Below are positions 9,783 to 39,226 of a stretch of 47,371 bases of DNA, piece after piece; positions within the stretch are counted from its first letter, which is position 1, and every line of letters starts with the position of its first letter. Position numbers and translations under genes: made by a program. Source of the DNA: Fodinibius salsisoli (GTDB lineage: Bacteria > Bacteroidota > Rhodothermia > Balneolales > Balneolaceae); the NCBI RefSeq assembly GCF_026229185.1, contig NZ_JAGGJA010000021.1, forward strand, positions 1 to 47,371, in the 5' to 3' direction. The notes beneath the pieces are model-generated. The model saw only the letters and a list, made by a program, of their open reading frames with translations. It was not told the DNA's origin and searched no databases.

Positions 9783-9836
9783 TGTCAAGTAAATAACGTA
9801 AAAAACTTGACATACCTAACGATTAAATGCTATATT
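9783..9836 (+). promoter_or_regulatory. AbiE promoter with overlapping inverted repeat operator
   Basis: TGTCAAGT (9783-9790) and ACTTGACA (9805-9812) form a perfect 8-base inverted repeat with a 14-base spacer. The right arm contains the -35-like TTGACA (9807-9812), followed after 18 bases by TATATT (9831-9836). AbiEi antitoxins of this family are known to repress their own promoter by binding inverted repeats, so this is the probable autoregulatory operator. The position also argues that translation starts at 9878 rather than at the earlier ATG (9827), which would lie upstream of the transcript start. Confidence 0.6.
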
Positions 9837-9877
9837 TATACAAGCTGTTAAAAGCCATTACCATAACACCTAGCATT

Positions 9878-10603: not shown

Positions 10604-11584
10604 ATGAATCTACACGAAGATACCGAAATCTTTCGGGATGCTATAAGGGCTACCGCCGATCGTAAGAATATTCGGGAAATCTATATCGAGAAAGACTACT
10701 GGGTAACCTATGCCCTTCATGCGATCTTTCATTCCGATATGAAAGACGTTGCCGTATTTAAGGGCGGTACGTCGCTTTCCAAATGTTACCAGGCGATCAA
10801 CCGATTTTCGGAGGATATAGATCTTGTGGTGTTTGAGGATCCCGACCTATCCAACAACCAAATGGACAATAGAGTCAGGGACGTCAGCAAAGTAGTTGAC
10901 GATACTGATTTGGAGGAAGTAGAATTATCCGGGATTACCATGAAACGTGGTAAAAACAGGAAAGTAGCCTACGAGTATTCCAAACATGGATATGACCAAG
11001 CTTTTGGCCAGGTTCGGGATAAAATCATTGTAGAAGTATCAAGGTTGGGACATTTCGAGCCTCATGAAGAAGTAGAGGTCCATTCGTTTATTGCCGATAT
11101 GATGAAAGCAAGAGGCCAGGAAGAGCTCATTGAAGAATATGGGTTAGCTGCCTTCCCCTTGAAAGTACTAACTATAGAACGGACCTTTTGCGAAAAAATA
11201 ATGTCTCTGGTCCGCTTCTCACATGCCGAAAATCCCTATGAGGATCTCGGCAATAAAGTCCGCCATACCTATGACATTCACATGCTGCTAAAGCAACCCG
11301 CGATTCAAGACTTCTTTGAAAGCAAAAAGCTAGATGAGATGCTGCTTCAAGTGGGAGCCGATGATATCGAAAGTTATGGCGACCAGTACGATTGGCTATA
11401 TGAGCATCCTGTCTCGGCACTGCTTTTTGACAAACCCAAAGCAACCTGGGATAAGATAAAGTCTGTTTATAACGGCACTTTCAAGGAATTGGTCATTGGG
11501 GATCTCCCGAAAGATGATGCGGTGTTTAAGGCTATTAAAAGAGTGGCTGAAAGACTGAAAGGTATTGATTGGGATCTTGGATAG
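10604..11584 (+). CDS. abiEii: AbiEii-like nucleotidyltransferase toxin
   Basis: A 326-residue member of the AbiEii nucleotidyltransferase family. KGGTSLSKC (residues 53-61) and SEDIDLVV (69-76) form the polymerase-beta-type motif with its two metal-binding aspartates. EKDYWV (29-34) and the later EYLLKVLTIERTFCEK-like segment are family hallmarks. AbiEii proteins are growth-inhibiting NTases (related MenT toxins modify tRNA) that block phage spread by abortive infection. The start codon abuts the antitoxin stop. The gene pair is more GC-rich than the flanking genes, which suggests separate acquisition. Confidence 0.85.
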   Translation: MNLHEDTEIFRDAIRATADRKNIREIYIEKDYWVTYALHAIFHSDMKDVAVFKGGTSLSKCYQAINRFSEDIDLVVFEDPDLSNNQMDNRVRDVSKVVDDTDLEEVELSGITMKRGKNRKVAYEYSKHGYDQAFGQVRDKIIVEVSRLGHFEPHEEVEVHSFIADMMKARGQEELIEEYGLAAFPLKVLTIERTFCEKIMSLVRFSHAENPYEDLGNKVRHTYDIHMLLKQPAIQDFFESKKLDEMLLQVGADDIESYGDQYDWLYEHPVSALLFDKPKATWDKIKSVYNGTFKELVIGDLPKDDAVFKAIKRVAERLKGIDWDLG

Positions 11585-16300: not shown

Positions 16301-16984
16301 AATACTTCTCTCAATTGAAAGCGCATCAACCAAATATCGCATTACTGGATCATTAAGGCCATAACCAATAAAGAGTACTGTATAATGATTGAATAACTCT
16401 GAAATAAAAACACTTGCCCATCGCTCAAGTAGATAAGCCGTTCCAAAATCACTTGAAGTTAAGACCAAATGCTTGCATAAAGGATCATGCTTATCAAACT
16501 TCCCATGGAGATGTACTAAGCTATTCCACTTTTTAGGTTTTGGAGGTGGCAAAGTAGGTGCAGAAGCCACCTTAAGATTGTTATCTACCTTTTCAAATAA
16601 TAAATCGAAATTTGTAGTAATTAATCTCTTAGAGCCATCTGATAAAGTAGATAATTTTAATATTGCATCATGGGTTGACAAGTCTGGATTTGATGGTGTA
16701 TCTAGTACCTCTCTCACATATTTCCTTACAATTTTAGCACCAAAACGCTCTTCACGTTCAAGGAGGCCTATAACTCGATCGTAATTCTTTTTATCAAATT
16801 CTTGTTTCTCTATTGAATCAAAACTTGCGCCCAACTTTTTTTTCAACTGACAAACCAATCCCTTGAAGTTTGGAAGTCCTGCCTTCATTGACACACCAGC
16901 TCCACAAAAAATAACAAGCCGCTCTTCTTCTAATGCTTGAATTAATTCTACAGGTATATCAGGACCATTTTTGATAAAACGCAT
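13328..16984 (-). CDS. Long SIR2-domain defence protein (defence-associated sirtuin type)
   Basis: A 1218-residue protein. The N-terminal 230 residues are a SIR2-like NAD-binding domain: GAGVSMKAGLP (28-38), catalytic Asn125 (TTNFD), His160 (HLHGKFD) and GYGLNDP (207-213). The remaining 1000 residues are alpha-helical and probably form a sensor/scaffold of the kind found in defence-associated sirtuins such as DSR1/DSR2. Those deplete cellular NAD+ when a phage protein binds. It starts 7 bases after the shorter SIR2 gene stops, so the two are co-translated. Which DSR type it is cannot be settled by eye; the length suggests a DSR1/DUF4020-like form. Confidence 0.8.
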   Translation of the reverse strand: MRFIKNGPDIPVELIQALEEERLVIFCGAGVSMKAGLPNFKGLVCQLKKKLGASFDSIEKQEFDKKNYDRVIGLLEREERFGAKIVRKYVREVLDTPSNPDLSTHDAILKLSTLSDGSKRLITTNFDLLFEKVDNNLKVASAPTLPPPKPKKWNSLVHLHGKFDKHDPLCKHLVLTSSDFGTAYLLERWASVFISELFNHYTVLFIGYGLNDPVMRYLVDALSIERSIDQRIKKAYALVEYKSKENRDSIREEWKAKNIIPILYHNDDNQHKKLHESLIRWSKIFEGGATSKREIVKKVAPNEPDSLSIEQVDQLCWAIFQSDTPSYARQFADIKPTPPISWLNTFEKRDLLKDLVSPEQNFSLAGYYSRTKSPPSLNDKEIAIGRWLSQHLENKKLIDWVIEQGGNLHPQFEDYIRRRLQSDNSEIKEPYKKAWSTLTSGYLFSSQNQFVNPYHLKKLEWSKATRLKLLEFLKPQISVRKYINWGVGEKKETSDEIESTKELIRAEISLKIGNTAKSVFDDLGQRDDWSTVLSDIVFTVIQYLREAYDLLEIAGVVTEEYDQSHIHQPSIEPHEQNNHFQDQTFLIELIRDAIDQHEEDVNKVKSIIEVLLSHPYPIFKRISLYAVNKINAYYKVYDLILDQPDAWLWRYSVRKEIYEYLPNLWDEINFIERSNLFDVIRKGPSRELFIDGLEDEELEEAVDRNVWNLLVRINYHSETGLNKKQKSLLDQIEGRRPNFSYRGTEREDFLFWSESGSRSYQTDYSIDDLKSQSLNERVDTLLDHEEHRRGLIENWRTFCSKYPTEAIETLNFIIRKKRFDEDVFSTAFHGLNLDVISSSDILDLLLSLSREQSSLIIRSSSKLLQSISEEYDVVPTDKFYTLWDRLYPFAVKGSSSLSDSDRINQAINHPAGYLVFALIMVTNQYNLKKGDGFPVEIKERLMQVISSEQGSDNLGQVILGRYLPFLNSIDPKWSQNELIPLFDLSDQEQSINLWQGYLWNPSINIELWEYIKPYFIKTFDYLDKLEGGSKNLAQILALVNTMDEYDISPKVIRKSLKKLTNEDRAEFFRWFELYLDNTDKEDEKAKVWRQVLIPLFNNTWPKEKKYKSETVSNKIATVLLKSEDVFPEAVKACKPFLVSRSEHFYHPHELLESDLIERFPEASLIFINKSTPENPPQWFAPIHKVLHRIEEADEKLRDSEEFKRLQKIIIENNLDRFD

Positions 16985-20368: not shown

Positions 20369-20532
20369 TGAATCAATGTTTGAGTTTGATAAATAAACCA
20401 CAAAGACTCAAATAATTCGTCACAGCCTATTATCATTTACTGATGTCTCATCTTTTCCCAATCTGTCCCATTCTTTAACAGTTCATTACACCCTGTTCCA
20501 GCCCATCCCGAGGTATTTTTCCTGATTTAAAT

Positions 20533-22044: not shown

Positions 22045-23070
22045 TTGAGTAGCCACTATCCCATACCAACTTCCCGCAACGCAGTCACGACCCATGGTTC
22101 AGTGATGAGCAGCAAGGCGGCAGCAAGCTCCCCCCAAGGAGATGTTGCCGCCTCTATTATTGCTAGTCGCAGGCAATACCCTGGAATCGACGGCGTCCTG
22201 GAACTGGCTTCGAAGCTGGTTACCAACTATACCGGACGCGAAGACATCCGCGGACTAGCGCTAAAAATTACTCGCAAGGTTCCCAGGAATATCAATACCG
22301 GCCTGCCTGACCTGCGAAATATAGACCAGATTGCGGGTGCCATCTACAAATGGATAACCCGCAACATCAACTACGTACGCGACCCGTGGAATATCGAGCG
22401 GATCCAGTCCCCGGACGTAACCATTCGGCAAAAAGCCGGAGATTGCGACGACCACGCGATCCTGTCGGCGGCCCTGCTGCAAAGCCTGGGCATCCAAACC
22501 GGCTTTCGTATTGTCAGCCGAACGGGGCGAACCTACGATCACATCTATACGGTCTTTCGGTCGCCACAAGGATGGAAATCTTTTGATACAACCGTTGCCA
22601 AATATCCCGGTTTCGAATTTGACGAGCGGCTGATCAAAAAGTCCAGGCACCTGCCCAACCGTATGCCAGAAGGCCTAGGCATTGACCCGATTACCCTGAC
22701 GGCAGCTGCCACGACGGCCCTGAAAACGGGAGCCGCTATGAAACCGCTGTTTTCCAAATGGTTTGGCGCCAAAGATAAGGGCGAACGCACCCAGCGCGGA
22801 CAATGGCGGGACTACCTGATGGCCCGAGGGGTTCGCTCGGACGTGATTTCGTTTTCCCAAAAGGATAATGCCATCCTCCAGCAGTATGCTATGGTTATCC
22901 AAGAGCACGGGCAACCGGCCGTTGATTACTTGAACAAATTTGGAAGCCTGGATAACAACTTTCTGGCTAGCCAACAACAATCCCGAAACAAAAAATGGCT
23001 CCTGTACGGCGGACTCTCAGCCGGGCTTGCCGCGCTCGGCGGAATCAGCTACTGGGCCTTCAACCATTAA
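22045..23070 (+). CDS. Transglutaminase-like cysteine protease-fold protein with C-terminal membrane anchor
   Basis: A 341-residue protein from a TTG start; an ATG at 22105 is an alternative. The core is a transglutaminase-like fold: Cys near residue 134 (KAGDCDDHAILSAALLQSLG), His near 166 (YDHIYTVF) and Asp near 181 (KSFDTTV), giving a complete Cys-His-Asp triad. The last 25 residues are a membrane segment (WLLYGGLSAGLAALGGISYW). Such folds act as peptidases or cross-linking enzymes. Here it could process or cross-link capsid proteins, or attack cell-wall peptides during entry. It fits the element's pattern of membrane-anchored proteins. Confidence 0.7.
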   Translation: MSSHYPIPTSRNAVTTHGSVMSSKAAASSPQGDVAASIIASRRQYPGIDGVLELASKLVTNYTGREDIRGLALKITRKVPRNINTGLPDLRNIDQIAGAIYKWITRNINYVRDPWNIERIQSPDVTIRQKAGDCDDHAILSAALLQSLGIQTGFRIVSRTGRTYDHIYTVFRSPQGWKSFDTTVAKYPGFEFDERLIKKSRHLPNRMPEGLGIDPITLTAAATTALKTGAAMKPLFSKWFGAKDKGERTQRGQWRDYLMARGVRSDVISFSQKDNAILQQYAMVIQEHGQPAVDYLNKFGSLDNNFLASQQQSRNKKWLLYGGLSAGLAALGGISYWAFNH

Positions 23071-25275: not shown

Positions 25276-25595
25276 CTCTTAGCATAGGCGATAAAGGCCC
25301 GCAGGTGATGCACCTGCAATCGGCACTGAAAGCCCTCGGTATCGGGCTTCCTAAATATGGGGTTGACGGCATATTTGGCCCCGAAACGCAGGCAGCTGTC
25401 AAGCAGGTCCAGCAACAATTGGGACTATCACCGAGTGGAACAGCTGACGAGGTATTACTAAGCAGGCTTGGTATTAACCAGCAATCTCTTCGGGGAACTC
25501 TGAAAAGAACTGTGCCAAAAACAGCACTCCTGGCCATAGGGACCATCGCCATCATTGGAATTGGAATCGCAATTAAACGAACTAAACGAGATTAA
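25272..25595 (+). CDS. Peptidoglycan-binding domain protein with C-terminal membrane anchor
   Basis: A 107-residue protein. Residues 1-66 are a canonical PG_binding_1 three-helix domain (GDKGPQVMHLQSALKALG, then YGVDGIFGPETQAAVKQ). A membrane helix follows at about 84-100 (ALLAIGTIAIIGIGIAI), then KRTKRD. Such domains bind the cell wall. A membrane-tethered version is expected in a virion that attaches to or penetrates peptidoglycan, or in a lysis apparatus. It overlaps the previous gene by 4 bases. Confidence 0.75.
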   Translation: MTLSIGDKGPQVMHLQSALKALGIGLPKYGVDGIFGPETQAAVKQVQQQLGLSPSGTADEVLLSRLGINQQSLRGTLKRTVPKTALLAIGTIAIIGIGIAIKRTKRD

Positions 25596-25596
25596 T

Positions 25597-26856
25597 ATGG
25601 AATCGATGACTGCCCAGCAGCTTGCAAAACTCAACATCAAAGGCATCAAAATAGCCCAACCTTACGGGCGGCTCCTTGGCGAACCCGAGAAGAATGCCGT
25701 CATTTTTATCTGGGGCGAAAAAGGGGCCGGCAAATCCACGATGAGCCTGGGACTCGCTGACGCCCTGGCCGAGCATGGTCGTATCGAATACATCCCCGCC
25801 GAAGAGCATTTTGGCAAAACACTGGTCGACCGCGTCAAACGACTCGGTGCCACCCACCGGAACCTGAATTTTACCAAGTGGAAATCCATTCAGGCCCTCA
25901 AAGAAATATTGCTCAAGAACCGGTCGTTCGCCTGCATCCTGGATTCCATTTCGGTGATTGATGCCAACGCGAAGGAAACGGTCGAGCTGGCCCAATGGTG
26001 CCGCGAGAACGGGATCATGTTCGTCATGGTCTCCCACGCGACCAAAGACGGGCAGTACAAAGGCAACACCAGCATTGCCCACGAATGTGATATTGAGATC
26101 AAAGTCACCAAAGAAGGCGGGGCGGAAACCGAGAAAAACCGCTACCGCGAACTCACTGCTATTGCCGTGCCCTTTTCAGCGAAAGACCGTGAAGTTAAAC
26201 CGGCTACCCCAGTGACCAAAGAAAACGACCCCAAATCACGCGAGAATCCGGTGGATACCCCTTTTAAGATTACCCTAAAAGAAATCGACACCCTCCACAA
26301 AATTCGCTCCTGGAAGCGGATCAACTCCATGTTTGGCAGCAAGATGCCGTGCTACGCGCCCAAGCATTCCGGGGAATCTGAAAACGCCCACCTGTCGATT
26401 CGGTACACGGCCGACTATCCCAAGAAGCGGTATATCATGGATCTGCTTCTGGACGGCCACCTCGAATACCAGGCCTGCACGGAAGGCAAAGCGGGCGGTT
26501 TAAAAGCGTGTTGGGAAAAGCTGGTCAGCAAATATGGCGATCTGGAAGTGCGCATCTTCAAACAAGATCACGCCAAAGTGGTATTGGGCGCCAAAGAGTA
26601 TAAACGGCAGGAACGTGCGCTGGGTAAAAAGGAAAAATCTACTGCGACCGACTCACCTGCCCCGAAGACCAAGAAGAAAGCAGCTTCTAAACCCAAACCC
26701 ATTTCAACCAAGCAACAAGTAAAAACTCCGTCAAAAGAAAAGCCAAGGACGAAGGATAAATCATCTGAGGAAAAACCCCAGCAGCAGGTAGACATTGAAG
26801 CGGCCAAAGCAAGCCAGGCCAAACTGGACGCCTTCCTAACCAACGTATTAGGCTAA
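25597..26856 (+). CDS. RadA/RecA-like P-loop ATPase with extra C-terminal domain
   Basis: A 419-residue protein from ATG 25597 (MESMTAQQLAK); an upstream in-frame ATG at 25555 lies inside the previous gene. Walker A is GEKGAGKST (about 40-48) and Walker B CILDSISVID (about 112-121). Further features are MVSHATKDG (motif like RadA) and a helicase-style arrangement over residues 1-200. Residues 230-345 form an unassigned alpha/beta domain (HKIRSWKRINSMFGSKMP), and the last 70 are Lys/Pro-rich. RadA-type ATPases move on DNA during recombination. In this context it could serve replication or genome packaging. Confidence 0.65.
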   Translation: MESMTAQQLAKLNIKGIKIAQPYGRLLGEPEKNAVIFIWGEKGAGKSTMSLGLADALAEHGRIEYIPAEEHFGKTLVDRVKRLGATHRNLNFTKWKSIQALKEILLKNRSFACILDSISVIDANAKETVELAQWCRENGIMFVMVSHATKDGQYKGNTSIAHECDIEIKVTKEGGAETEKNRYRELTAIAVPFSAKDREVKPATPVTKENDPKSRENPVDTPFKITLKEIDTLHKIRSWKRINSMFGSKMPCYAPKHSGESENAHLSIRYTADYPKKRYIMDLLLDGHLEYQACTEGKAGGLKACWEKLVSKYGDLEVRIFKQDHAKVVLGAKEYKRQERALGKKEKSTATDSPAPKTKKKAASKPKPISTKQQVKTPSKEKPRTKDKSSEEKPQQQVDIEAAKASQAKLDAFLTNVLG

Positions 26857-26863
26857 TAATCGT

Positions 26864-29800
26864 ATGCGAGACAATCCCACTGTGACCCCTTTTGAAGACA
26901 TTACAACTGAGGACTATCCCGGCATTTTTGGGGACTTTGATGGGGACGGGATCCCCAACGCCGATGATCCCAATCCACAGTTGGCTGGCGACACCGAAAC
27001 CGTCGAAGAGACCCAGCTCACCGAAGAAATCAAGCAGCTGATCGACCTGCGAGGCGACTATCAGCAGGCCTTAGACGAGGTAATCGCAAAACTTAAAGCC
27101 CTGCAACCCAAAGCTACCGTGAAGGGGCGCGTCAAATCGCCCTACTCGGTCATCAACAAACTGCGTCGCAAACGCATTAAAGGCGATATAAAACAGGCTG
27201 ATACAAACGAGCTCTACACCCAAGGCCTGACCGATATGGCCGGCTGTATGATCGTGCTATCTGGTCAAGCCGAACTGGATCAGATAGTCAAACAGATTAG
27301 CTTAGGTACGGTTGGTAAAGTTTTCGAACATGAAGATAAATATGCCGAGCCCGTCGGTGGCTACCGGGCGCATCACTTTATCGTGATGGCGGGGGAGACC
27401 GAAGATATTCCGGTCGAGATTCAGGTAAAAACCCGGCGGATGGCACAAATAGCCAGTGCCGCTCACACGCCATACAAGAACGGACAACTTAACACTAATC
27501 GAATGCACCAGCTCACTGACTTGGCCTGGCAAGCGGACCAAGGGGATGAAGTTGCTGCCAATCAAATTGATGCTCTTCTTGATGACCCAGAAAAATTGAC
27601 GGGGCAGTTGACAACCCGCGAAAATCCTTCGAGTGACCTACAACAGCTCCAAAATTCATTCACTCTGGCCGTAAAGAAACTAGCCCTGGCTTTTTCCCTC
27701 GATAAATTTCCCACAGAGCACCGAGAGCAGGCCTTGGAACTGTTTCGCCAGCACGGAAATATTATTGGCGTTGATTTTGAAGAAGTATTTTCTGCCGCCC
27801 AAAAGAAAACCGAAACTCCAAAAAAAGAAGACGATCCATCATACCAACCCTCCGAAGATCGGCCGGGAGAAGCGGGATTTGGAAGCCATTTTTCCGGCCT
27901 CCAACTGAAAAATTTTGCCCCAATTAAACTCTCGAAGTCCGAGCGACGAAAAGCCAACGAGGCGGCCCTGGCCGTCTTGGAAAAAGAAGATCGTTCGATT
28001 ACCGAATCGGATCTGGACCTACTCCGACAATACACCGGTGCTGGCGGGCTCGGGTATGGGGAGGATGCCACAGGAACCGAACGCGGCCTACTTAACGAGC
28101 ACTACACCTCCTACCAACTGGCCAGCCTGATCTGGGATAAACTCGGAGCCATGGGCGTGGACGGTGGTAACATCTTAGAACCCGGGGCAGGGGTAGGTAA
28201 CTTTGCAGGCTTCATGCCAACCAGCGGAGCCTTTCGCATGCTGATGGTCGAGCGGTCGGCGGTAAGCTCACGCATCGCGGGGCTTCTATACCCTAACCAG
28301 TTAGTTAAACACGAAAACTTTGCTCAGACTGACCTATCGCCCTATAACCTGACCGGCGTGGTCGGTAATGTTCCTTTTGGGGATATTAAAATTCACACCC
28401 AGCGAGACCCATTGGCTCCCCTCAATCCAAGGATCCACGACTACTTTATCCTGAAGTCCCTGGACGCTCTGCAACCCGGCGGCTTCCTGGCGGTGATCAC
28501 CTCAGTCGGTACCATGGACAAGAAGGATCCAGCCATTCGACAGGCTATGGTTCAACGCGCCCGGTTTGTGGGTGCTTACCGGCTCCCCTCGACTGTTTTT
28601 AAAGACAATGCCGATACACTGGTTACCACGGACCTTATTTTGTTTCAGAAGTACCCGGATGTGGACGGGGAAACCCACCCGGACGTAAGCAGCGAATTAA
28701 ACCAGCTGTTTGCTTACCAAGAGCTGGCTGTCAGTATCACTGAACACAAAGGAGAATCTTACGGGGCCTATTATAATCCATATTACCAGAAATATCCCGA
28801 GCAGGTATTAGGCGAGCACATCCAAGGCCACGACATGCAGTTTCTGACTCGCATGGGCGTCAAAGGTCAGGTTGATGAGGCTCTGGCCGGCCAGGTTCTC
28901 GGAGATGATCTTCGCTTCCCGTACCCGCTTCCGAGGACCTTGCCGTTCTACCGGATCCCCGATGAGGGCGTGCGGCTGGAGACGACCCGCGATTATCACG
29001 CCGGGAATATTGTCTACCATGATGAGAAATTCTACGAAAAACAGCGCCACTATTTTAAACCTATTGCTGTAGGCAGCAAGGACAATGCGGGTGACGGCCT
29101 TCGCGCCAAGATAAGCTCGGCTTGCCAAATGCTGGACAAATACGATGATTTCGTCACGGCGCTGGCTCAAGACAGCCAGCAAAAAGAGCCGCTTCGCGGA
29201 GAGTTTAAGAAGCTGCTCGAAAGCCACATCAATAGCTACGGTATTCCAGACGAAGACGAGGATATCCGCGAGATATTCCGCTTCGATAACCGCCTGTATA
29301 AACTCACAACTTTTGTGAAACGGGATCCCATCAGTAGAGACCTGGTCTATGCCGATATTATCGACGCCGATTCCCTATTTAACCGCAACTACGTACCGGC
29401 GGTATCCGACTCCGATGATCTGGCCGAAATTGCCATGTATGGCCGCTCCATTGGTGAAGAACTGACGCTAGATTTCTACGGGTCCACCTATAAGGGCGGG
29501 ACCGCCAGTCGGGCCGAGCTCACTGGAGCCATCCAAGAGCACCCGGATTTCTTCTATAATCCCGCGTCCAATACTTACGAGTTTCGGTATCAATACTTGG
29601 CCGGTAACGTCCGCCGGAAGCTGGAGCTGGCCGAAGACAACCAGCTGGAAAAAAACATCCAGGCCTTGAAGGCGGTCCTGCCTGAATGGATTGATGCCTA
29701 TTCGATCACCGTGGATCCGCGACACATTTTCACCTACTTGCCGGCCAAAGTGCTAGTAGAATGGATAAAAGATGAGCTGGGCTATCGGGATGTCCATATT

Positions 29801-32800
29801 GGCCTGGTCAAAGATAAAGCCGAGCTGGGCAACCGCTTCTATATGAAACTCCGCAAAGGCGGACGGTATATAAAAAATGGCGAAGAAACTGCCGACGATT
29901 GGAACCAGGGGTGGGGCGAGACGCCATTTAGCAAAATTATTAACAACTATATCCAGGATTCCAGTTTCCCGCTGGTCTTCTATGATGAGAACGACAACGT
30001 CCTGCCAAATATGACGCTGAAACGAGCCGAGCAAACCGGCCAGCAGGCGCTCATTGAACGAGCGCGCGCTAAACAGCGCACTCATAACGATCAGATGTTG
30101 ACGCGCGTGCCCCAAAAGTTCAACCAGTGGGTACGCACCAAGGCCTCCACGGAAATTCGCGAACTCATCGAGGGAGCCTATAACCACGAGTATAACGCTC
30201 ATATCAACCCGCAATTCGATGGGAGTACCCTCCGCGTGCGCGGCATGTCGGATACCTTCTATGGAGTCAAAGATTTTGCGGTGTATAAACACAACCGCGC
30301 GGTGGCCGAAAAACTAGTATGGAACGGGCGCGGCGCCAACTGCCACGACGTCGGCGCCGGAAAAACGCTCTCTTCGATTATCACTTCGCAAGTCCTTCTG
30401 CAGCAGGGCGCCTGCCACAAGCCCATGTTTGTGGTACCCGGCAAAGTGCAGGAAAAGTGGGTCGAGGAATACGCGATGCTGTTCCCGGAGGCCAAGATCC
30501 TCAACATGAAAATGGCCGGCCCCGAGCGCCACAAAGAACTCACCATGGCCCAACTCTACAACTGGGACGCGATCTTTATCGCCGACCATGCCTTCAAGAG
30601 TCTGCCACTGTCACCGGCCGTCCAGCAGCAAATGTATTCGGAGCGCGTGGAATACTTCGATCAGATGATTGACAATTTTGACGAGCTTATCGAAGAGGAC
30701 GACGCGCTAAGCTCCACGGCTAAAAAGTCGATGGTCACGCGCTTGGAGAAGATGAAAGAAGAGTGGGAGGCCAAGCTCCGCAACGTAGCCAGTGCCAAGC
30801 GCCTGGATACCGATATCTTTTTTGATGAGCTCGGCGTGGATGCCCTGTTCTTTGACGAAGCCCACTTCTACAAAAATGCGTTGGGCAGCGCCAAAGCCGC
30901 CAAGCTGGGCATTGCCGCGAATAAGCCTTCCCAGCGAGCTGAAGATGCGCTCCAGAAAACCAAATGGCTGTTTTCCAAGATAGGATATAAGAACGTGTTT
31001 GTCCTAACGGCCACGCCGGTCGTCAACTCTCCGGTGGAGGTCTGGCATATGCTCAACCTCTGCGCCCCAGATCTGCTGGACAAATACCAGATTGCCAATC
31101 TCGACAACTTCATCAACCAGTTTGTCCGTGAGGAAGAAAAGATCGTCAAAAAGACCAACGGTGAATACCGCACCGAACGCGTAGTGGCCGGCTATTACAA
31201 CCTGCCGGAAATGCGGTCTATCATCGACGAGGTCATGGACATCAAAAGCTATGATCAGCTGGTGGGATTCTACGAGAAATTTCCGGACTACCTCAGAGAT
31301 AAATCTGGCGTAATTGTAACCGATAACCAGGGCAATCCCCAAGCGCTCAAACCGAAATTCAAGCGCCCCGAAGCCGAAACCAAACAGCAGGTTATCGAGC
31401 CCAGCGAAATTCACAAATTGTTATTTGACGACATTATTCTCCGGGCCGATAATATTCTGGACTGCATGCGCCAGCGCGGATGCCAGACCAAGGACAACTT
31501 CCTGGTCATTACCGGCGATGGTAGCAAGATAGCTACGGATCTTCGTGTCTATGACCACAGCTTCGAAGGCGTAGATGGCAAGTTTCTCAAATTGGGAGCC
31601 CTAGTGGACAACGTAGCCGAAAGTTACGCCTTCCGCGAAAACCCCGCCCCAAGCAGAGTACCGGAAAGCATCTATGGCGACTTCTTTTCAAAAGTACCGC
31701 CGGCCAGAGAAAACCCGAACCCCTACGCGGGCCAGTCGCGTCACAAACTTATTCAAGAGCTCAAATCCCTGGGGCACTTCGAAGAGGTAGCCGGTGAAGT
31801 TGAAGCCACCGAAGGCGACCTCCACGCCGTACCCGTTGGCAAACAGTTCTTGCTCAATAAAATCGAAAAACAGCGTGAGAAACACTCCGACGGCTCCGAT
31901 GCCATGGAAGAAACCTTTGACCGGGCGATGATGATTGTTGAGGTCTTGTATGGCGGCCGCGAAAACCCAGCGTTCCCAACCTTCCGTAACCAGATCATCT
32001 TCTGCGACTGGATCTCTGTGGAAGGCCAGAAAGGCGGCAGTTACCACCAGTTGATCAAGGAGGAACTCACAAAGGCAGGCATCCCGGCTAACGAAGTTGC
32101 CATTATTAATGGCTCCATCATTGGAACCGATAAGAAGGGCAACGACTATTTCGTCTCCTCGGCCGATGACAAGGAAGCCCTCAAAAAGCAGGTGCAAGAT
32201 GATTTTAATATCGGAAAGTACCGCGTGTTGATCGGCAATCAGTCCATTGCTGAAGGCATGAACCTGCAGAAATGGACCACCGACCTACATCACATGGACG
32301 TGCCCTATACGCCCTCGCAGATCCAGCAGCGCAACGGGCGCGGGCTCCGGCAGGGCAACCAACATGGAAAAGTGAACATCCATTTTTATCTGATGAAGGA
32401 TTCTTTTGATCAGTACCGCCTGGAGCTGGTCAGCAAGAAACAAAGCTGGATTGATGAACTCTTCTTCGGGGACGGCCGAGAAACCTCCGCCGATTCCGAG
32501 GGCGAATCCTTGGAATACGAGCAGATGGTGGCCGCCACCAACTCTGATCCGCGAGTTAAAGAATTTTTTGGCTCCAAAGCACAAACCAAGGTGCTGAAAG
32601 CCCGCATCGATTCCCTGCTTAGCGAAACCCAGCGGCTGGAGTCCTCCCTGTCCCAAGCAAGCCAAGATGTTGCCAAGAAAAGTGAACGCATGGAATCAGC
32701 GATCCAGCGAGAGCAATCCCTGATTGATTCAGAGCTTCCGACCTCGGGGGCCGAGGCCTTAAATCAAGGACTTATTCGGGTAGACTGGCTGGATCACAGC

Positions 32801-34114
32801 GGGGAGGTTGGGACCATCGAAAACAACCTGTCTTCAGACGGCAAACGCATTCCCCGGTTCCGCCACGAGCTTACCCTGGAAGTCCCAAAAAATAACGCCA
32901 ACGGGCGGGTGCTGTTTAATCTTATCCCTGACCCGAATGCTCCAAACCGAAGTTTCTACAACAAGATTAAGTGGAGCTCGATCAAACAGATGGCCAGCGA
33001 CCAGCTAAATCAGCAATTTGGCTGGAGTATGGACGAGCCGGTCCAATGGGGCCGAAGCCTGGCCGGCAACAAAGGCAATATTATTGCCGATGAGTCCGAC
33101 TTTTACAGCCACTACGATGTAGATATCGAGGCCGAAAAACAGAAAACAGGCCCCGACGGAACCGAAGTAACTTTCGATCAGATTAAGCAACAGCTGGGCA
33201 TGTACAAAACGGAGCGCTGGCTGCCAATCATAAAACAAAAACTGGCCGGACTCTTCCTAGCCCTGGAACAAGGCTGGCAGCAATCGGCCGAAGGACGCAT
33301 TCAGCAGATTACCTCGGAGCTGGAACGATCCAAAAAGACATTGCGAGAACTGGAGAGTACCCACCAGCAAACGCAAAAAGAGTTGGAGCAGGCCCAGTCC
33401 GACCTTACCACCAACCAAGACACTGTAACCAAATTGCAAGATGTGGTCAACGAGTTGGTCAAAACCAAATTTTCTGACCGGTCGGAGCTCTACGAAGAGC
33501 TCAACCGCATTGCCCCCACCTACGGCGTGAAGGGTACCGTCCGCGTCCGTGAAGTGGGTATTTACCGGGATAGCCCAACGGGCGAAAACATTCGCCCAAA
33601 CCGGTCCGAGAAAGAATCACCCTTAAAAGCTCTCCCTATGCCCTTGAAGACACTCTTTGGCCAGCCGCTGGTATATGCTGGCACCGTTGGGGAACTGGAG
33701 TTTATCGACACTAAAGGATTCATGCAGCGCATCGTCTCGGAAAGCGAAGACTTGGCGATGATTATCGACGCCGAGGGAACCACGCTGTTTGCCTTCCCGA
33801 CCCAGCGCATGAAGCTCCTAAAAGGAGCCTTTGACAACGGAGATGCCGAACAGATGTATGAGGAGTTCCACCATTTCCCGGCCGACGGCTACGATTACGA
33901 ACTGTTTCCACCGGCCGGCGCCGAGCTGGTTTCCATTGGTCACGCCGAACGGATCATGTACTCCAGCGACAAGGTGATCTACTCCGGCGACCAGAAAGGA
34001 GACGACCATCACTACTACCACTATTTCGACGATGGCAAACGTCCCGTCTTCTCCTACGGGGACGTGTACATCATCACAAACCTGAATATTGACGGCCGAG
34101 GCATCCTTAACTAA
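26864..34114 (+). CDS. Giant polyvalent protein: RelA/SpoT-like domain + N6-adenine methylase + SNF2 helicase
   Basis: A 2416-residue protein. Residues 24-35 (DFDGDGIPNADD) are a thrombospondin-3/EF-hand-like calcium motif. Residues 85-205 look like a RelA/SpoT synthetase: KGRVKSPYSV, DMAGCMIVL, GGYRAHH (about 164), VEIQVKT (about 184) and AHTPYK. A DarB-type methylase follows (LEPGAGVGNF near 438, GNVPFG near 500). The SNF2-type helicase has VGAGKT near 1163, DEAH near 1331, TATP near 1381 and RNGRGLRQG near 1821. Coiled coils lie near 1905-1945 and 2142-2195. Phage P1 DarB-like proteins are packaged and protect injected DNA from restriction. Confidence 0.8.
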   Translation: MRDNPTVTPFEDITTEDYPGIFGDFDGDGIPNADDPNPQLAGDTETVEETQLTEEIKQLIDLRGDYQQALDEVIAKLKALQPKATVKGRVKSPYSVINKLRRKRIKGDIKQADTNELYTQGLTDMAGCMIVLSGQAELDQIVKQISLGTVGKVFEHEDKYAEPVGGYRAHHFIVMAGETEDIPVEIQVKTRRMAQIASAAHTPYKNGQLNTNRMHQLTDLAWQADQGDEVAANQIDALLDDPEKLTGQLTTRENPSSDLQQLQNSFTLAVKKLALAFSLDKFPTEHREQALELFRQHGNIIGVDFEEVFSAAQKKTETPKKEDDPSYQPSEDRPGEAGFGSHFSGLQLKNFAPIKLSKSERRKANEAALAVLEKEDRSITESDLDLLRQYTGAGGLGYGEDATGTERGLLNEHYTSYQLASLIWDKLGAMGVDGGNILEPGAGVGNFAGFMPTSGAFRMLMVERSAVSSRIAGLLYPNQLVKHENFAQTDLSPYNLTGVVGNVPFGDIKIHTQRDPLAPLNPRIHDYFILKSLDALQPGGFLAVITSVGTMDKKDPAIRQAMVQRARFVGAYRLPSTVFKDNADTLVTTDLILFQKYPDVDGETHPDVSSELNQLFAYQELAVSITEHKGESYGAYYNPYYQKYPEQVLGEHIQGHDMQFLTRMGVKGQVDEALAGQVLGDDLRFPYPLPRTLPFYRIPDEGVRLETTRDYHAGNIVYHDEKFYEKQRHYFKPIAVGSKDNAGDGLRAKISSACQMLDKYDDFVTALAQDSQQKEPLRGEFKKLLESHINSYGIPDEDEDIREIFRFDNRLYKLTTFVKRDPISRDLVYADIIDADSLFNRNYVPAVSDSDDLAEIAMYGRSIGEELTLDFYGSTYKGGTASRAELTGAIQEHPDFFYNPASNTYEFRYQYLAGNVRRKLELAEDNQLEKNIQALKAVLPEWIDAYSITVDPRHIFTYLPAKVLVEWIKDELGYRDVHIGLVKDKAELGNRFYMKLRKGGRYIKNGEETADDWNQGWGETPFSKIINNYIQDSSFPLVFYDENDNVLPNMTLKRAEQTGQQALIERARAKQRTHNDQMLTRVPQKFNQWVRTKASTEIRELIEGAYNHEYNAHINPQFDGSTLRVRGMSDTFYGVKDFAVYKHNRAVAEKLVWNGRGANCHDVGAGKTLSSIITSQVLLQQGACHKPMFVVPGKVQEKWVEEYAMLFPEAKILNMKMAGPERHKELTMAQLYNWDAIFIADHAFKSLPLSPAVQQQMYSERVEYFDQMIDNFDELIEEDDALSSTAKKSMVTRLEKMKEEWEAKLRNVASAKRLDTDIFFDELGVDALFFDEAHFYKNALGSAKAAKLGIAANKPSQRAEDALQKTKWLFSKIGYKNVFVLTATPVVNSPVEVWHMLNLCAPDLLDKYQIANLDNFINQFVREEEKIVKKTNGEYRTERVVAGYYNLPEMRSIIDEVMDIKSYDQLVGFYEKFPDYLRDKSGVIVTDNQGNPQALKPKFKRPEAETKQQVIEPSEIHKLLFDDIILRADNILDCMRQRGCQTKDNFLVITGDGSKIATDLRVYDHSFEGVDGKFLKLGALVDNVAESYAFRENPAPSRVPESIYGDFFSKVPPARENPNPYAGQSRHKLIQELKSLGHFEEVAGEVEATEGDLHAVPVGKQFLLNKIEKQREKHSDGSDAMEETFDRAMMIVEVLYGGRENPAFPTFRNQIIFCDWISVEGQKGGSYHQLIKEELTKAGIPANEVAIINGSIIGTDKKGNDYFVSSADDKEALKKQVQDDFNIGKYRVLIGNQSIAEGMNLQKWTTDLHHMDVPYTPSQIQQRNGRGLRQGNQHGKVNIHFYLMKDSFDQYRLELVSKKQSWIDELFFGDGRETSADSEGESLEYEQMVAATNSDPRVKEFFGSKAQTKVLKARIDSLLSETQRLESSLSQASQDVAKKSERMESAIQREQSLIDSELPTSGAEALNQGLIRVDWLDHSGEVGTIENNLSSDGKRIPRFRHELTLEVPKNNANGRVLFNLIPDPNAPNRSFYNKIKWSSIKQMASDQLNQQFGWSMDEPVQWGRSLAGNKGNIIADESDFYSHYDVDIEAEKQKTGPDGTEVTFDQIKQQLGMYKTERWLPIIKQKLAGLFLALEQGWQQSAEGRIQQITSELERSKKTLRELESTHQQTQKELEQAQSDLTTNQDTVTKLQDVVNELVKTKFSDRSELYEELNRIAPTYGVKGTVRVREVGIYRDSPTGENIRPNRSEKESPLKALPMPLKTLFGQPLVYAGTVGELEFIDTKGFMQRIVSESEDLAMIIDAEGTTLFAFPTQRMKLLKGAFDNGDAEQMYEEFHHFPADGYDYELFPPAGAELVSIGHAERIMYSSDKVIYSGDQKGDDHHYYHYFDDGKRPVFSYGDVYIITNLNIDGRGILN

Positions 34115-34132: not shown

Positions 34133-34654
34133 ATGACCCAACGAATATTTGCAAAAAATCCAACACACTTGGATGTAATTGAAAACCCAACAACCCCAAA
34201 ACCTGCAACTATGGCAAAACAACTAACAACCGAAAAAGCTGTCAGCGAATTTAAGCAGCAGCTTATCACTGCCGGATATATTGTGGGCGGCCAGGCAATT
34301 GGTGCGCAGCTTAATGGGCTGGCCGTACCCGCTATTCTTGGCGGAAGCTCAGCGACCGTCCAGCAAGCGGCCCGCGTTGGCCTCCCGCTCACCCTTGGCA
34401 TGGCCTTTACCATGTTCACCAAAAACAAACACCTTCGCGGTCTGGCCATGGGGCTCGGCGTGCAAGGTGTGATGGAACTGATCAAGTTCGTCATGCCCGA
34501 CTGGACTCCTTCCCAGGGCCTGATGGAAGGCAGCGAATACCTGTGGGATGAGCAAAATATCGCTCCACAACCCACGCCACCAGCGCAGCTCCCCATCGAA
34601 ACCGGCCATGTCTCTCAAATCGAAACCGTATTTGAAGATACCGTGGAGGTGTAA
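34133..34654 (+). CDS. Hydrophobic protein of unknown function, possible virion membrane protein
   Basis: A 173-residue protein. The middle contains two or three hydrophobic stretches (GYIVGGQAIGAQLNGLAVP, VGLPLTLGMAFTMF, GLAMGLGVQGVMELIKFV) interrupted by basic residues (TKNKHLRG). The tail is acidic and Pro-rich. No family is recognised. It follows the giant protein by 18 bases and precedes the leader of the candidate capsid gene, so it may be a membrane protein of the particle. Confidence 0.5.
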   Translation: MTQRIFAKNPTHLDVIENPTTPKPATMAKQLTTEKAVSEFKQQLITAGYIVGGQAIGAQLNGLAVPAILGGSSATVQQAARVGLPLTLGMAFTMFTKNKHLRGLAMGLGVQGVMELIKFVMPDWTPSQGLMEGSEYLWDEQNIAPQPTPPAQLPIETGHVSQIETVFEDTVEV

Positions 34655-34763: not shown

Positions 34764-35384
34764 ATGAGTAACCAAATTTCTAAAAAAGCTATTGTCCCCG
34801 CCAGCGCGCGCATCAAAACCTATTTTGATACCCAGCAAGTCACCCAAAACGGCGCTGTCGTTAACTTCTTTCCTCCTAACTCGACGCGGAAGATTACCCG
34901 GAACAATTACGTGGGCAATCCCTTCCCGGGGGAACTCAAGCGACGCATCCTTGCCCTTTCCTTCGAAGTGACCAAGCAGTTCATCGAGGACGATGAGGCC
35001 AACGGCATCGATGCCCGCGGAATCGTTAATTCCCTAAAAGATGCCGGCGTCATTTTGCAGGCCGATAATGACAACAAAGAGTTTCTGCGCGTGCCCATCT
35101 CCAAGCATTCCAACTTCTCCGGCACTGATGTGCAGTTGGTGGCCGGCACGGCGAATACCGTAGATGCTCCGGTGGTTTTCAAACGTATCGCTGCCCTTCG
35201 TTCAGCGGACGAATACCGCTTGGCCGATCCCTTCGATCTGGCTGTCAATCAGACCTTGTCCCTCTCGGTTCATTTCGAGGATTCCTCGGTGTTCCCAAGT
35301 GACGAGAACTGGACCACGTCCGGCCAAGGCCTGCTCTACCTGCGCGCCAGCATTGTCGTGGCTGAAATGAAGCCCGAAAAATAA
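34764..35384 (+). CDS. Candidate major capsid protein (small)
   Basis: A 206-residue protein of about 23 kDa. No membrane segment. It alternates predicted beta strands with short helices; FPGELKRRILALSFEVTKQF is one helical/strand pair, and ADPFDLAVNQTLSLSVHFED resembles the closing strands of viral jelly-roll proteins. It has its own leader and is followed by a strong intrinsic terminator, the arrangement expected of an abundant structural protein. Size and adjacency to a 259-residue partner recall the two single-jelly-roll capsid proteins of P23-77-like and halosphaeroviruses. The homology is inferred, not demonstrated. Confidence 0.45.
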   Translation: MSNQISKKAIVPASARIKTYFDTQQVTQNGAVVNFFPPNSTRKITRNNYVGNPFPGELKRRILALSFEVTKQFIEDDEANGIDARGIVNSLKDAGVILQADNDNKEFLRVPISKHSNFSGTDVQLVAGTANTVDAPVVFKRIAALRSADEYRLADPFDLAVNQTLSLSVHFEDSSVFPSDENWTTSGQGLLYLRASIVVAEMKPEK

Positions 35385-35454: not shown

Positions 35455-36234
35455 ATGAAAATTGTTAAGAATTTTATTCCACCAACCGAGTCTACGCCCT
35501 TTAATCCAGCCAAAGCTGTCCAGCTGCAAGCTGGGGCTAGCGGACATATTATGATGAATGGCATGGGCGGGGAAAGTTTTGGCGTCCGAAAGATATTGCC
35601 CTATGCCTTGGATATGAATAAGGTATTTGTTTCCGCTCGACTTAATGAAGATTTGTACCTGTTTCGCGACCTGCAACTTTCTGTAGTACACCGGTTGTTC
35701 CGCCACATTGACGGCCTGCTGGCCCCGTTCATTATTCAAAAAAGCAACAGCTTGGTCTTCGAGCTGACTAACACCCACAACGCAGTTCAGACCGTAAATA
35801 TCCAGCTCGTTGGCTACGATCATTACAGCCTTACCAAGCTGATAAACATCTACTCCGAAATTGGCAGTCCGATGCCCCAGCCGCGCTTCCTCTACGGACA
35901 AGCCACGCTGGTCCCGGGCGCGGTCAATATTGATATGGGCGTGAAAGCCAAAAGCATCGATGTAGAAGCCCGACGCCTGGCAATGAGTAGCGACCGGCCG
36001 GGCGATATCACTGCCAGCCTGAAAGTCTATAATACGACTATCCGCAACGAGGTTTATTTGGAGCAGATTAACGACGAATTCGGCCAGTTCTATGCTAACG
36101 TCCCTTTTATCATTGGCTCCAATATGCCCTTTCAAGTGTACGCTTCTAACAAAGGAGCGCAACAGGCTGGTGTAAGTTTCCTCTGTGAATCCTACGTGGT
36201 GCAGAAGTCCGATGCCAACCCGCTGGAGGTATAA
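35455..36234 (+). CDS. Candidate second capsid/structural protein
   Basis: A 259-residue, largely beta-stranded protein with no membrane segment. NSLVFELTNTHNAVQTVNIQ (about 102-121) and GDITASLKVYN (about 181-191) look like strands of jelly-roll or immunoglobulin-like viral structural domains. FYANVPFIIGSNMPFQVYAS is typical of the last strands. It follows the 206-residue protein across a terminator, so it is probably made at lower level. I infer a capsid role from size, strand pattern and position. A vertex or minor capsid protein is equally possible. Confidence 0.45.
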   Translation: MKIVKNFIPPTESTPFNPAKAVQLQAGASGHIMMNGMGGESFGVRKILPYALDMNKVFVSARLNEDLYLFRDLQLSVVHRLFRHIDGLLAPFIIQKSNSLVFELTNTHNAVQTVNIQLVGYDHYSLTKLINIYSEIGSPMPQPRFLYGQATLVPGAVNIDMGVKAKSIDVEARRLAMSSDRPGDITASLKVYNTTIRNEVYLEQINDEFGQFYANVPFIIGSNMPFQVYASNKGAQQAGVSFLCESYVVQKSDANPLEV

Positions 36235-37214: not shown

Positions 37215-38666
37215 ATGAATACCATCAATCAAACTCTCTCTATTGGCACACCTAAATCAGGGATGGACCTGTTTTGCAACGTCAGCATCGACGGGAAGCA
37301 CCTGTTTCGGATGCACTGCGAGTCCTTCGTGGGTAACCTGTTGCGCGACGTCCATGGGATGATGCACGGCGGCAAAACGGATCGGCTGATTAGCCCCGGT
37401 GACGATTACGTGCAGGACGGCAAAATAACGTCCCTACACATTGTCGATGGGGCCCTGGAAATCTACAGCCAGTACTATCTGGAATATATATTCAGCGGTA
37501 TGCACGGGGTGAATCCCAACGGCGAGGAGCCCGTCTGGGTACACATCTGGGGGTGCAGCTCGATCCCACAGATCAACGGCACCTGGGAAGTTGAAAGCAC
37601 CTACGGCGACTATTATATCCGACTGAAAGACGCCCCCACGAATTTTGATCCAGCAACCTACGTGGCCGACCAGGCGCAGGTTATTGCCAAGCACTACCAT
37701 CCTATTACGACCACCGAAAGCTACTGCCCACCTTTTCGCGTCATTTTGCCCACCATCGGGCAAGGCAGCCGCCCGGTAAGCATCTCCGATGTGGGCCTGC
37801 ACAACCCCATTGACGCGCTGTTGGCTCGGGGCGCGCGGTCGGTTTCCGGCGTGATTACCGACCAGCAAAAAAGCGTCTTTACCGTATCGGCTCCGTTTAC
37901 CAACGGCTCCGGAGGTGACCTGGCCATTACCGAAATGGGGCTGATGACGCATATCAATGTCAACCGCCATGAAATCAACACCATTGCTACTCTCTATGCA
38001 CGCGACGTGCTACCGGCAGCCCTCAACCTGCCCAATGGCAAGACGCTGACCTTGGATTACGAGTGCCGGTTTGAGCTCGAAAACTTCAACCAAGATACCG
38101 ACCTCAACGGTTCCAACGGCGGGTTTACCGCTGAATTTGTGGGCGCCCTCCGGCGACAAGCGGTCGAAAACACCAATACCAACTGGCGGGATCTGATGTG
38201 TATCGCCGGTGGGGGCACCTCGATGACCTCTCTGCAGCGCCGGGCGTCAGAAATCAATAAGGGGTGGCACCTGGGACTCCGGCTCGGCCAAAGCAACAAG
38301 TTCGTCTCCATGACCGACACCGACCTGTCTCCGGATGCTACCCAAGAGACGCCCTATAACATCGGAGGCATCATGCATGGCAGCGGAGACGGCCAGCTGA
38401 TCCATCACGGGATGATCATCGACGACCAGGTAACCATTGATGAAGCCAACAATGAAGCGTACTTCAACTTAGCTCGCGTATTTGAAAACAGGGGCACTAC
38501 CGACATCACCATAAAGGAGGTAGGTATTTACGCCAACCGTGGGGATGACTATGACGAATGGGTCCCCAAACTCGTAGCCCGAAAAGCACTTGCCCCCGCC
38601 GATCAGTTTACCATCATGGCCGGTCAAATGCGCAAGGTTAACTACAAGATTAAGATGGTGGTGTAA
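37215..38666 (+). CDS. Fibre/spike-like protein with internal duplication
   Basis: A 483-residue protein from ATG 37215; the upstream in-frame start at 37176 lies in the preceding gene. It is beta-rich. Residues about 218-285 and 414-483 look like two copies of one module. Each has a polar segment, then ITEMGLMTHINVNR or IKEVGIYANRGDDY, then LYARDVLPAALNLPNGKT or VARKALAPADQFTIMAGQ. This motif is frequent in phage receptor-binding or baseplate-like proteins. It probably forms the element's host-binding spike. Its stop overlaps the transglycosylase start by one base. Confidence 0.55.
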   Translation: MNTINQTLSIGTPKSGMDLFCNVSIDGKHLFRMHCESFVGNLLRDVHGMMHGGKTDRLISPGDDYVQDGKITSLHIVDGALEIYSQYYLEYIFSGMHGVNPNGEEPVWVHIWGCSSIPQINGTWEVESTYGDYYIRLKDAPTNFDPATYVADQAQVIAKHYHPITTTESYCPPFRVILPTIGQGSRPVSISDVGLHNPIDALLARGARSVSGVITDQQKSVFTVSAPFTNGSGGDLAITEMGLMTHINVNRHEINTIATLYARDVLPAALNLPNGKTLTLDYECRFELENFNQDTDLNGSNGGFTAEFVGALRRQAVENTNTNWRDLMCIAGGGTSMTSLQRRASEINKGWHLGLRLGQSNKFVSMTDTDLSPDATQETPYNIGGIMHGSGDGQLIHHGMIIDDQVTIDEANNEAYFNLARVFENRGTTDITIKEVGIYANRGDDYDEWVPKLVARKALAPADQFTIMAGQMRKVNYKIKMVV

Positions 38667-39226
38667 TGACCAACTCTTTTTCGATATCGGCCGAGCTTAC
38701 CTACGCCCGAATTCGTGGCCTGATGGGATATTTCGCTGATGCCTCCAGGCGATATGGCGTACCCTTGACACTGCTGCTGGCAGTAGCTTCCCGGGAAAGC
38801 CGAATGGGACTTGCCCTTGCTCCCGATGGCACCGGCGACCATGGCAACGGCATCGGCATTATGCAGATCGACAAGCGGCATCATCCCAACTTTACCGACC
38901 GCCATAGCCACTTTGACCATCAAGCCAATATTGATTATGGAGCCCAGTACTTGGCAAAACTGCTCCAACAGTTCAACGGAAATACCACCCGGGCCGTTGC
39001 CGCCTATAACGCCGGGCCTAATAAAGTACGAACTGCCATTTACGCGGGCTTGCCACCGGATTCGGTCACCACTGGCAAGGATTACAGCCAGGATGTGCTG
39101 GAGCGAAAACAGCTCATCGTCCAGCTGCTCGGCCTCTCCAAAGCAACCAGCTTATCCATATATGTCCTTCCGATGGCCGCTATCGCTTTTGCAACTTATA
39201 ACTATATGACCACCCAACACCCATGA
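38666..39226 (+). CDS. Lytic transglycosylase (SLT/goose-lysozyme type) with C-terminal membrane anchor
   Basis: A 186-residue enzyme. The catalytic Glu44 lies in AVASRESRMG; GIGIMQIDK (63-71) and AVAAYNAGPNK (110-120) complete the SLT motifs. It should cleave the glycan strands of peptidoglycan. The C-terminus (SIYVLPMAAIAFATYNYM) is a membrane helix, so the enzyme is anchored. In tectivirus PRD1 the virion transglycosylase P7 is also membrane-associated and opens the wall during entry. A lysis role is the alternative. It overlaps the next gene by 4 bases. Confidence 0.85.
   Translation: MTNSFSISAELTYARIRGLMGYFADASRRYGVPLTLLLAVASRESRMGLALAPDGTGDHGNGIGIMQIDKRHHPNFTDRHSHFDHQANIDYGAQYLAKLLQQFNGNTTRAVAAYNAGPNKVRTAIYAGLPPDSVTTGKDYSQDVLERKQLIVQLLGLSKATSLSIYVLPMAAIAFATYNYMTTQHP

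Follow-up and report, generated by a model that had tools for sequence, protein, structure and literature searches.

The window (the whole stretch of DNA analysed, 47,371 nucleotides from Fodinibius salsisoli) contains a gene for a giant protein with a RelA/SpoT-type domain, a DarB-type methylase-helicase, and a C-terminal tag domain. The main features of this gene are as follows.

26864..34114, + strand: RelA-DarB polyvalent protein gene, 2416 aa (ORF call, Pfam, PHROGs)
26933..26977, + strand: Ca-loop-like motif DFDGDGIPNADDPNP, aa 24-38 (D24, D26, D28, and D34 invariant in 20/20 copies)
27041..27493, + strand: RelA/SpoT-type pyrophosphokinase domain, aa 60-210, with D124, Y167, and E185 (Pfam, PDB profile search, fold match, invariance)
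27944..28783, + strand: DarB-like N6-methylase domain, aa ~361-640, with NVPFG at 502 (phrog and P1 DarB matches)
30116..32698, + strand: SNF2-type helicase, aa ~1085-1945 (Pfam, PHROGs, P1 DarB profile match)
33554..34111, + strand: C-terminal tag domain, aa 2231-2416, terminus RGILN (common to SSIP-1 gp43 and differently loaded proteins)

Several conflict-type domains are combined here in one mobile-element protein, which is how a polyvalent protein is defined (Iyer et al. 2017).

A sequence-only reading of this gene had proposed an N-terminal RelA/SpoT-like domain followed by a methylase and an SNF2 helicase. The first was borne out by the Pfam RelA_SpoT profile, which matches residues 88-207 with 51.8 bits (cut-off 27). 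The methylase and the helicase were both confirmed, in that order, by Pfam, PHROGs, and the P1 DarB profile match. P1 DarB matches the 14-copy profile with 250 bits (E=1.3e-78, one-sequence database); the PHROGs matches include a DNA-methyltransferase family (E 1e-168) and the DarB-like phrog_10089 (E 4.7e-163). The Pfam SNF2-rel_dom and Helicase_C matches are above their cut-offs; the Pfam methyltransferase match, taken alone, is below its own. The giant protein contains the collinear methylase and helicase core of the DarB-type antirestriction proteins. The helicase motifs (DVGAGKT at 1162, DEAH at 1331, TATP at 1382, and QQRNGRG at 1821) are intact in 20/20 copies, and a variable insert is located at about residues 1571-1706. 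The same reading had also described an EF-hand-like DxDxD motif. The motif DFDGDGIPNADDPNP is real, but the EF-hand label is less apt, as the motif presumably resembles a thrombospondin-type-3 Ca loop more closely. No Pfam calcium-binding family was found in the giant protein at E<=1.

The giant gene lies in a block of 22 other ORFs, which is related to SSIP-1 (Salisaeta icosahedral phage 1).

20444..41613, + strand: SSIP-1-like provirus, late/structural block (the giant gene and 22 further ORFs at 20602-41616; block homologous in all 10 of the loci examined)
22045..23070, + strand: transglutaminase-like protein, SSIP-1 gp34 homologue, annotated structural (Pfam Transglut_core 5e-10; gp34 1e-35)
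25555..26856, + strand: RecA/KaiC-like ATPase, SSIP-1 gp40 homologue, annotated structural (blastp 35%, 1e-30; phrog_6891 2e-28)
34133..34654, + strand: SSIP-1 gp44 homologue, annotated structural (2e-10)
34764..35384, + strand: small putative capsid-type protein, SSIP-1 gp45/gp46 homologue, annotated structural (2e-18, 4e-7)
35455..36234, + strand: large putative capsid-type protein, SSIP-1 gp47 homologue, annotated structural (2e-6)
38666..39226, + strand: lytic transglycosylase, SSIP-1 gp54 homologue (Pfam SLT 3e-18; gp54 5e-36)

Further SSIP-1 matches were found for the ORFs at 21618 (gp33, 5e-7), 24192 (gp35, 0.001), 24865 (gp36, 2e-8), and 36238 (gp48, 0.002). Altogether, 10 of the 22 other ORFs match SSIP-1 in the same gene order (blastp E<=0.002; 28 of SSIP-1's 57 proteins were in the comparison). 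The gp40, gp43, gp44, gp45, gp46, gp47, and gp48 proteins of SSIP-1 are annotated as structural; a capsid-type nature of the small and large proteins listed above is our inference. The giant gene occupies the place of gp43 in the SSIP-1 order (ATPase, giant gene, capsid-type genes). The gp43 gene itself is annotated in GenBank as "DNA methyltransferase, structural protein" and lies between the ATPase and capsid-type genes. It matches the window protein at the C-terminus (aa 2307-2416, 31%, 4e-12) and weakly in the methylase (0.004), with little else. SSIP-1 is grouped with the tailless internal-membrane viruses, as described in PMC5332951 and PMC6260650. The giant protein almost certainly belongs to an SSIP-1-like provirus.

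DNA similarity among the loci starts near 20444 and stops near 41613. The GC content is mostly 50-53% inside the block versus 31-47% in the left flank. No integrase was recognised among the ORFs scanned in the 21-kb block (20444-41613), and no att repeat could be named. As for the integrase and early genes of SSIP-1, which do not strictly define such a virus, of gp1-gp33 only gp33 was matched by tblastn in the 24 stretches with limited flanks (gp1-gp32 gave none). By tblastn, all 22 other element ORFs are present in seven of the eight Fodinibius-group loci, and 21 in the eighth, which is at a contig end; 19 were found in genome G056 and 20 in G014 (this table covers 10 of the 14 loci known at that point). 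The small capsid-type protein is 99-100% identical in 5 of the 10 loci. The carriers in the genome_contigs set include Aliifodinibius/Fodinibius, Rhodohalobacter halophilus, Gracilimonas amylolytica, Balneola, and Bacteroidetes MAGs, and three genomes have two RelA-bearing copies each. Examples of cultured carriers are salipaludis WN023 (L044) and Fodinibius sediminis DSM 21194 (L046). In one further record, the RelA part of the element is located on a low-coverage contig of 11.5 kb that is filed under a Pleurocapsales cyanobacterium, which could be either contamination or a true jump.

The 6-kb flanks were compared for nine loci. The left flank of the window's copy is shared with G003, and its right flank with none; G003, G007, and one G009 copy have right-flank sequence in common, and two further pairs have 160-180 bases in common. 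The provirus copies adjoin different flanks, although no integrase was recognised among the ORFs scanned in the block. Beside the provirus there are also defence genes: a type IIG restriction enzyme (1879-5715), Gabija (6812-9584), AbiE (9827-11584), and Dsr1 (13328-16984).

The N-terminal query found no RelA-DarB relative in viral_contigs. With the whole protein, tblastn matched 115 phage and 2093 plasmid records, none covering 80% of the query; the best 40 of the 115 phage matches and the best 40 of the 2093 plasmid matches all start at residue 279 or later. With the RelA domain (E<=0.1), 14 phage and 23 plasmid records were matched at no more than 34% identity (all 14, and the best 20 of the 23). 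Of three of these records (H107, H97, and H93), one has a 209-aa frame and two have Rel-type frames of 730-783 aa. Over 394 genomes of the phylum, the RelA profile scored at least 525 bits only in frames of 2410-2525 aa, and the next match was 38 bits, both among the matches listed. There are two RelA_SpoT (PF04607) matches in the bacterium's own genome: the giant protein, and a 753-aa frame on another contig (C43), which is the housekeeping Rel by length and score.

The giant protein is under purifying selection, including its RelA domain (dN/dS about 0.1). Among ten Fodinibius-group copies, the median dN/dS is 0.099 for the RelA domain and 0.080 for the C-terminal domain, with lower values for the methylase (0.043) and the two halves of the helicase (0.031 and 0.036); these medians exclude pairs with dS undefined or <=0.05, which leaves 36/45 pairs for RelA. 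Compared with the methylase, the RelA domain evolves at about double the rate, and compared with the helicase, at about three times the rate. Its distances correlate with those of the methylase and helicase (r=0.97 for 14 copies; 0.94 for the ten Fodinibius-group copies), and the fusion therefore looks old and inherited as a unit. The C-terminal domain tracks the rest less well in the Fodinibius group (r 0.58 and 0.61).

The RelA-type domain matches solved small alarmone synthetases by phmmer and by the 14-copy profile (best 6ewz, 1.7e-9, among PDB sequences). Structural modelling had been suggested as a check on the sequence-only reading, and the predicted model has a RelA-type fold. The AlphaFold2 model covers residues 1-329 and was built from 15 sequences (mean pLDDT 74; loop 100-123 below 50; block 121-130 mean 70). 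The closest folds are RelP (6fgj; Z 16.8, rmsd 2.6, 168 residues aligned) and RelQ (Z 16.4), followed by CapRel (14.2), Tas1 (11.9), and FaRel2 (8.7). This match refers to the fold as a whole; the catalytic residues were paired by sequence alignment. The Tyr, Glu, and Asp positions that had been pointed out are recovered in these alignments, as Tyr167, Glu185, and Asp124 align with the corresponding Y, E, and D in YwaC, RelP, and YjbM. In 20 distinct full-length copies, R89, K91, S95, K99, D124, K159, Y167, H171, E185, Q187, and T190 never vary, so that the residue set of the RSH enzymes (catalytic D and E, stacking Y, and the R/K/S/K of the donor site) is invariant in 20/20. We take D124 and E185 to be the predicted metal ligands, the Tyr to stack the base, and R/K/S/K to form the donor site. 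A RelA domain by chance or misannotation was rejected, given the score over the cut-off and the residues conserved in 20/20.

Other positions differ from the known synthetases. The Arg of the D-[IL]-x-[AG]-x-R motif is retained by the bacterium's own Rel and three other synthetases aligned; in the giant protein it is Met129 (20/20 copies). Relative to PKxNGY, the acceptor loop is shorter by one residue and lacks the Lys in 14/14 aligned copies (PVGGY in ten), and the Asn is kept in 2/14. The SLH of other synthetases is replaced by AHH. About 13 extra residues precede D124 in the alignment with the host Rel, one stand-alone synthetase, and two Rel-type synthetases. The syn2/syn3/syn4 positions read GCM/AHH/VK in the window protein and G[CA]M, AHH, and [VI]K across the 14 copies. 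As given in PMC12226406, the RSH signature is AVR/SxH/IR and the Apk signature is RYT/GxN/YH. The giant protein has neither; of the RSH signature, the His alone is kept. Because of the Met and the altered acceptor loop, the product of the domain cannot be named, and the activity may be altered or lost. Catalysis looks possible, the acceptor is not predictable, and the domain is probably an active enzyme. No cognate hydrolase or antitoxin was recognised by Pfam in 20 of the 22 other element ORFs, many of which are without any family.

These features bear on two other roles for the domain. It might pyrophosphorylate the CCA ends of tRNA, in the manner of FaRel2 or CapRel, and block translation without any free alarmone. 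The acceptor loop and the syn2 Arg position are unlike those of the other synthetases compared, and CapRel is among the fold matches; however, RelP and RelQ are closer (Z 16-17) and FaRel2 is far behind, and the syn3 His is kept (H171, 20/20). A tRNA target seems unlikely. Alternatively, the domain might bind nucleotides without catalysis and serve as a sensor or regulator for the methylase-helicase, a role that would suit the Arg-to-Met change, the acceptor loop lacking its Lys and mostly its Asn, and the faster evolution of the RelA domain. The predicted metal ligands, the stacking Tyr, and the donor site are nevertheless invariant. Retention of the catalytic residues weakens the case for a sensor, in spite of the changed acceptor loop and the one changed Arg, and we regard this role as improbable.

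The C-terminal domain is more widely distributed than the RelA-DarB fusion. Its profile matches 24 places in 19 of the 92 family genomes, as well as 15 of the 394 phylum genomes; in the genus, 8 of the 12 genomes carry it. In viral_contigs the profile matched one contig, which at 43,788 bases has the length of SSIP-1. The profile thus recovers SSIP-1, whereas a single-sequence tblastn of the domain had no matches at all, not in SSIP-1 either. There are 25 intact proteins with the domain, and one further place (G446) is cut at the contig start. The RelA-methylase-SNF2 architecture is present in 20 of the 25. The others carry different cargo: methylase-SNF2 without RelA (L060); ATPase, ArdcN, MPTase-PolyVal, and ddrB-ParB (L059 and L093); ATPase and ddrB-ParB (L058); and methylase and ParB_N (SSIP-1 gp43). 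Homologues of the two capsid-type genes adjoin L058, L059, L060, and L093. At L058:7085-10138, L059:6392-10594, and L093:8667-13034 (minus strand), a single chain comprises the ATPase, the cargo, and the tag. The model of the C-terminal domain is poor (mean pLDDT 46), and its best PDB profile match is Scone-E (2.5e-4, with no single stretch passing alone).

These data support the earlier suggestion that a DarB-like protein is packaged, since SSIP-1 gp43, a relative at the corresponding gene position, has a structural-protein annotation. In related proviruses, cargo already known from polyvalent proteins (ArdcN, MPTase-PolyVal, and ddrB-ParB) is joined to this C-terminal domain. Against packaging, only about 110-190 C-terminal residues and the weak methylase match (E 0.004) are common with gp43. 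On balance, the comparison with the relatives suggests that the giant protein is very probably packaged in the virion.

The giant protein also contains a short repeated motif, RxNP.

26867..26878, + strand: RxNP motif 1, RDNP, aa 2-5 (motif scan)
27617..27628, + strand: RxNP motif 2, RENP, aa 252-255, past the RelA core (13/14 copies)
31634..31645, + strand: RxNP motif 3, RENP, aa 1591 (14/14 copies)
31706..31717, + strand: RxNP motif 4, RENP, aa 1615 (14/14 copies)
31958..31969, + strand: RxNP motif 5, RENP, aa 1699 (14/14 copies)

The motif was noticed before testing, and the following shuffle counts are thus post hoc. The window protein has 5 sites versus 0.25 expected from residue shuffles (0/2000 reached 5). 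An excess was also found in L059 (7 vs 0.70, 0/2000), L093 (5 vs 0.69, 0/2000), L058 (5 vs 0.73, 2/2000), and the 28 SSIP-1 proteins (4 vs 0.88, 21/2000); it is absent in L060 (2 vs 0.82, 387/2000) and in the other window ORFs (1 vs 0.60, 898/2000). The three sites in the helicase insert are kept in 14/14 copies, though conservation of the insert is among the lowest in the protein (26/136 columns invariant). The motif, mostly as RENP, is also present in the ATPase at 25555-26856 (aa 229); among relatives, it occurs in the gene that follows and in gp41 and gp43 of SSIP-1. The N-terminal RDNP of the window protein corresponds to an internal RKNP in L094 (8747-16321, minus strand), which has about 104 extra residues ahead of it. 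RxNP may be a cleavage site, a docking motif, or a relic of gene fusion.

The reading we prefer, with a probability of roughly 0.5 as a whole, is that the protein is virion cargo in which the DarB part guards the DNA and the RelA part acts on the new host. The giant protein would be late-expressed cargo of an SSIP-1-like tailless membrane virus, put into the particle by its C-terminal domain and perhaps by the RxNP motifs. At entry, the DarB-type methylase-helicase would ride on or modify the incoming DNA and shield it from restriction, as P1 DarB would lead one to expect. The N-terminal RelA-type domain would take pyrophosphate from ATP and attach it to an acceptor within the newly entered host, which might damp host growth and defence during establishment. 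The chances that the RelA domain acts on the host at entry are about even, and the role of an extra counter-host weapon, suggested from the sequence, is plausible. The DarB part would presumably work like P1 DarB; in our reading, the RelA part would act as small alarmone synthetases do, and delivery may resemble that proposed for other virion-carried polyvalent proteins.

A further possibility, which we consider very unlikely, is that the protein acts while the provirus is resident, or at a late stage of infection (shut-off or exclusion of rival phages), and not in a new cell. In its favour, the gene lies between the ATPase and the capsid-type genes, which makes late bulk synthesis probable, the window copy adjoins Gabija, AbiE, Dsr1, and the type IIG system, and CapRel, a RelA-type enzyme, reportedly serves phage defence. 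Against it, RelA is here fused to an antirestriction-type module, and the annotation of the SSIP-1 counterpart is that of a virion protein.

Alarmone synthetases in polyvalent proteins are known already. Iyer et al. 2017 (PMC5512222) describe RelA/SpoT domains, in MuF fusions as well as in polyvalent proteins of phages, as "not very widespread", with cases in (pro)phages of Spirochaetes and epsilonproteobacteria; "Salisaeta" does not occur in its main text. The window protein shares with the proteins described there an alarmone-synthetase-type domain in a giant multi-domain, probably virion-delivered protein, and the idea of altering the host at entry is the same. It differs by its occurrence in Balneolaceae, its SSIP-1-like provirus, and the fixed N-terminal RelA on a DarB-type methylase-helicase. 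The Apk2 MuF polymorphic toxins are (p)ppApp synthetases according to PMC12226406; they likewise have a phage-borne pyrophosphokinase domain on a virion-type protein, and the syn2 Arg is absent in both signatures. However, the window protein lacks RYT/GxN/YH, and no iapK or aph1 neighbour was recognised.

P1 DarB (2255 aa) shares the collinear methylase and SNF2-type helicase core, but has no profile match to the RelA core or the C-terminal tag. SSIP-1 gp43 shares the gene slot, the C-terminal domain, the weak methylase match, and an RENP motif; it differs in its ParB_N domain, and no RelA or SNF2 match was found in it. RelP/SasA and RelQ/SasB are similar in fold and catalytic residues, whereas the RelA part here is embedded in a 2416-aa protein, with the Arg-to-Met change and the altered acceptor loop. 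Among the papers listed, at the level of titles and abstract openings, and with subscription journals mostly outside the search, neither a RelA-DarB fusion nor SSIP-1-like Balneolaceae proviruses were found described. Four features look new: the lineage of host and virus, the fixed RelA-DarB unit, the changed acceptor loop, and the tag-plus-cargo pattern.

The 20 sequenced copies of the fusion, in one provirus lineage and some in named species, are open to experiment. If the giant protein is delivered in the virion, tailless membrane-containing viruses would join those with polyvalent effector delivery, and the C-terminal domain points to a loading domain that is portable. Given the altered acceptor loop, one can ask, and directly test, what the RelA enzyme pyrophosphorylates. 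More tentatively, the SSIP-1-like viruses might possess an effector platform, in which a C-terminal loading domain and RxNP joints are combined with swappable entry enzymes, some on the virion ATPase; in the window lineage, the enzyme would be of RelA type, with a new acceptor specificity, and delivered with the genome. In the same block, the transglutaminase-like protein (22045-23070) has a hydrophobic C-terminal end; as a pure guess, it is a candidate for RxNP processing.
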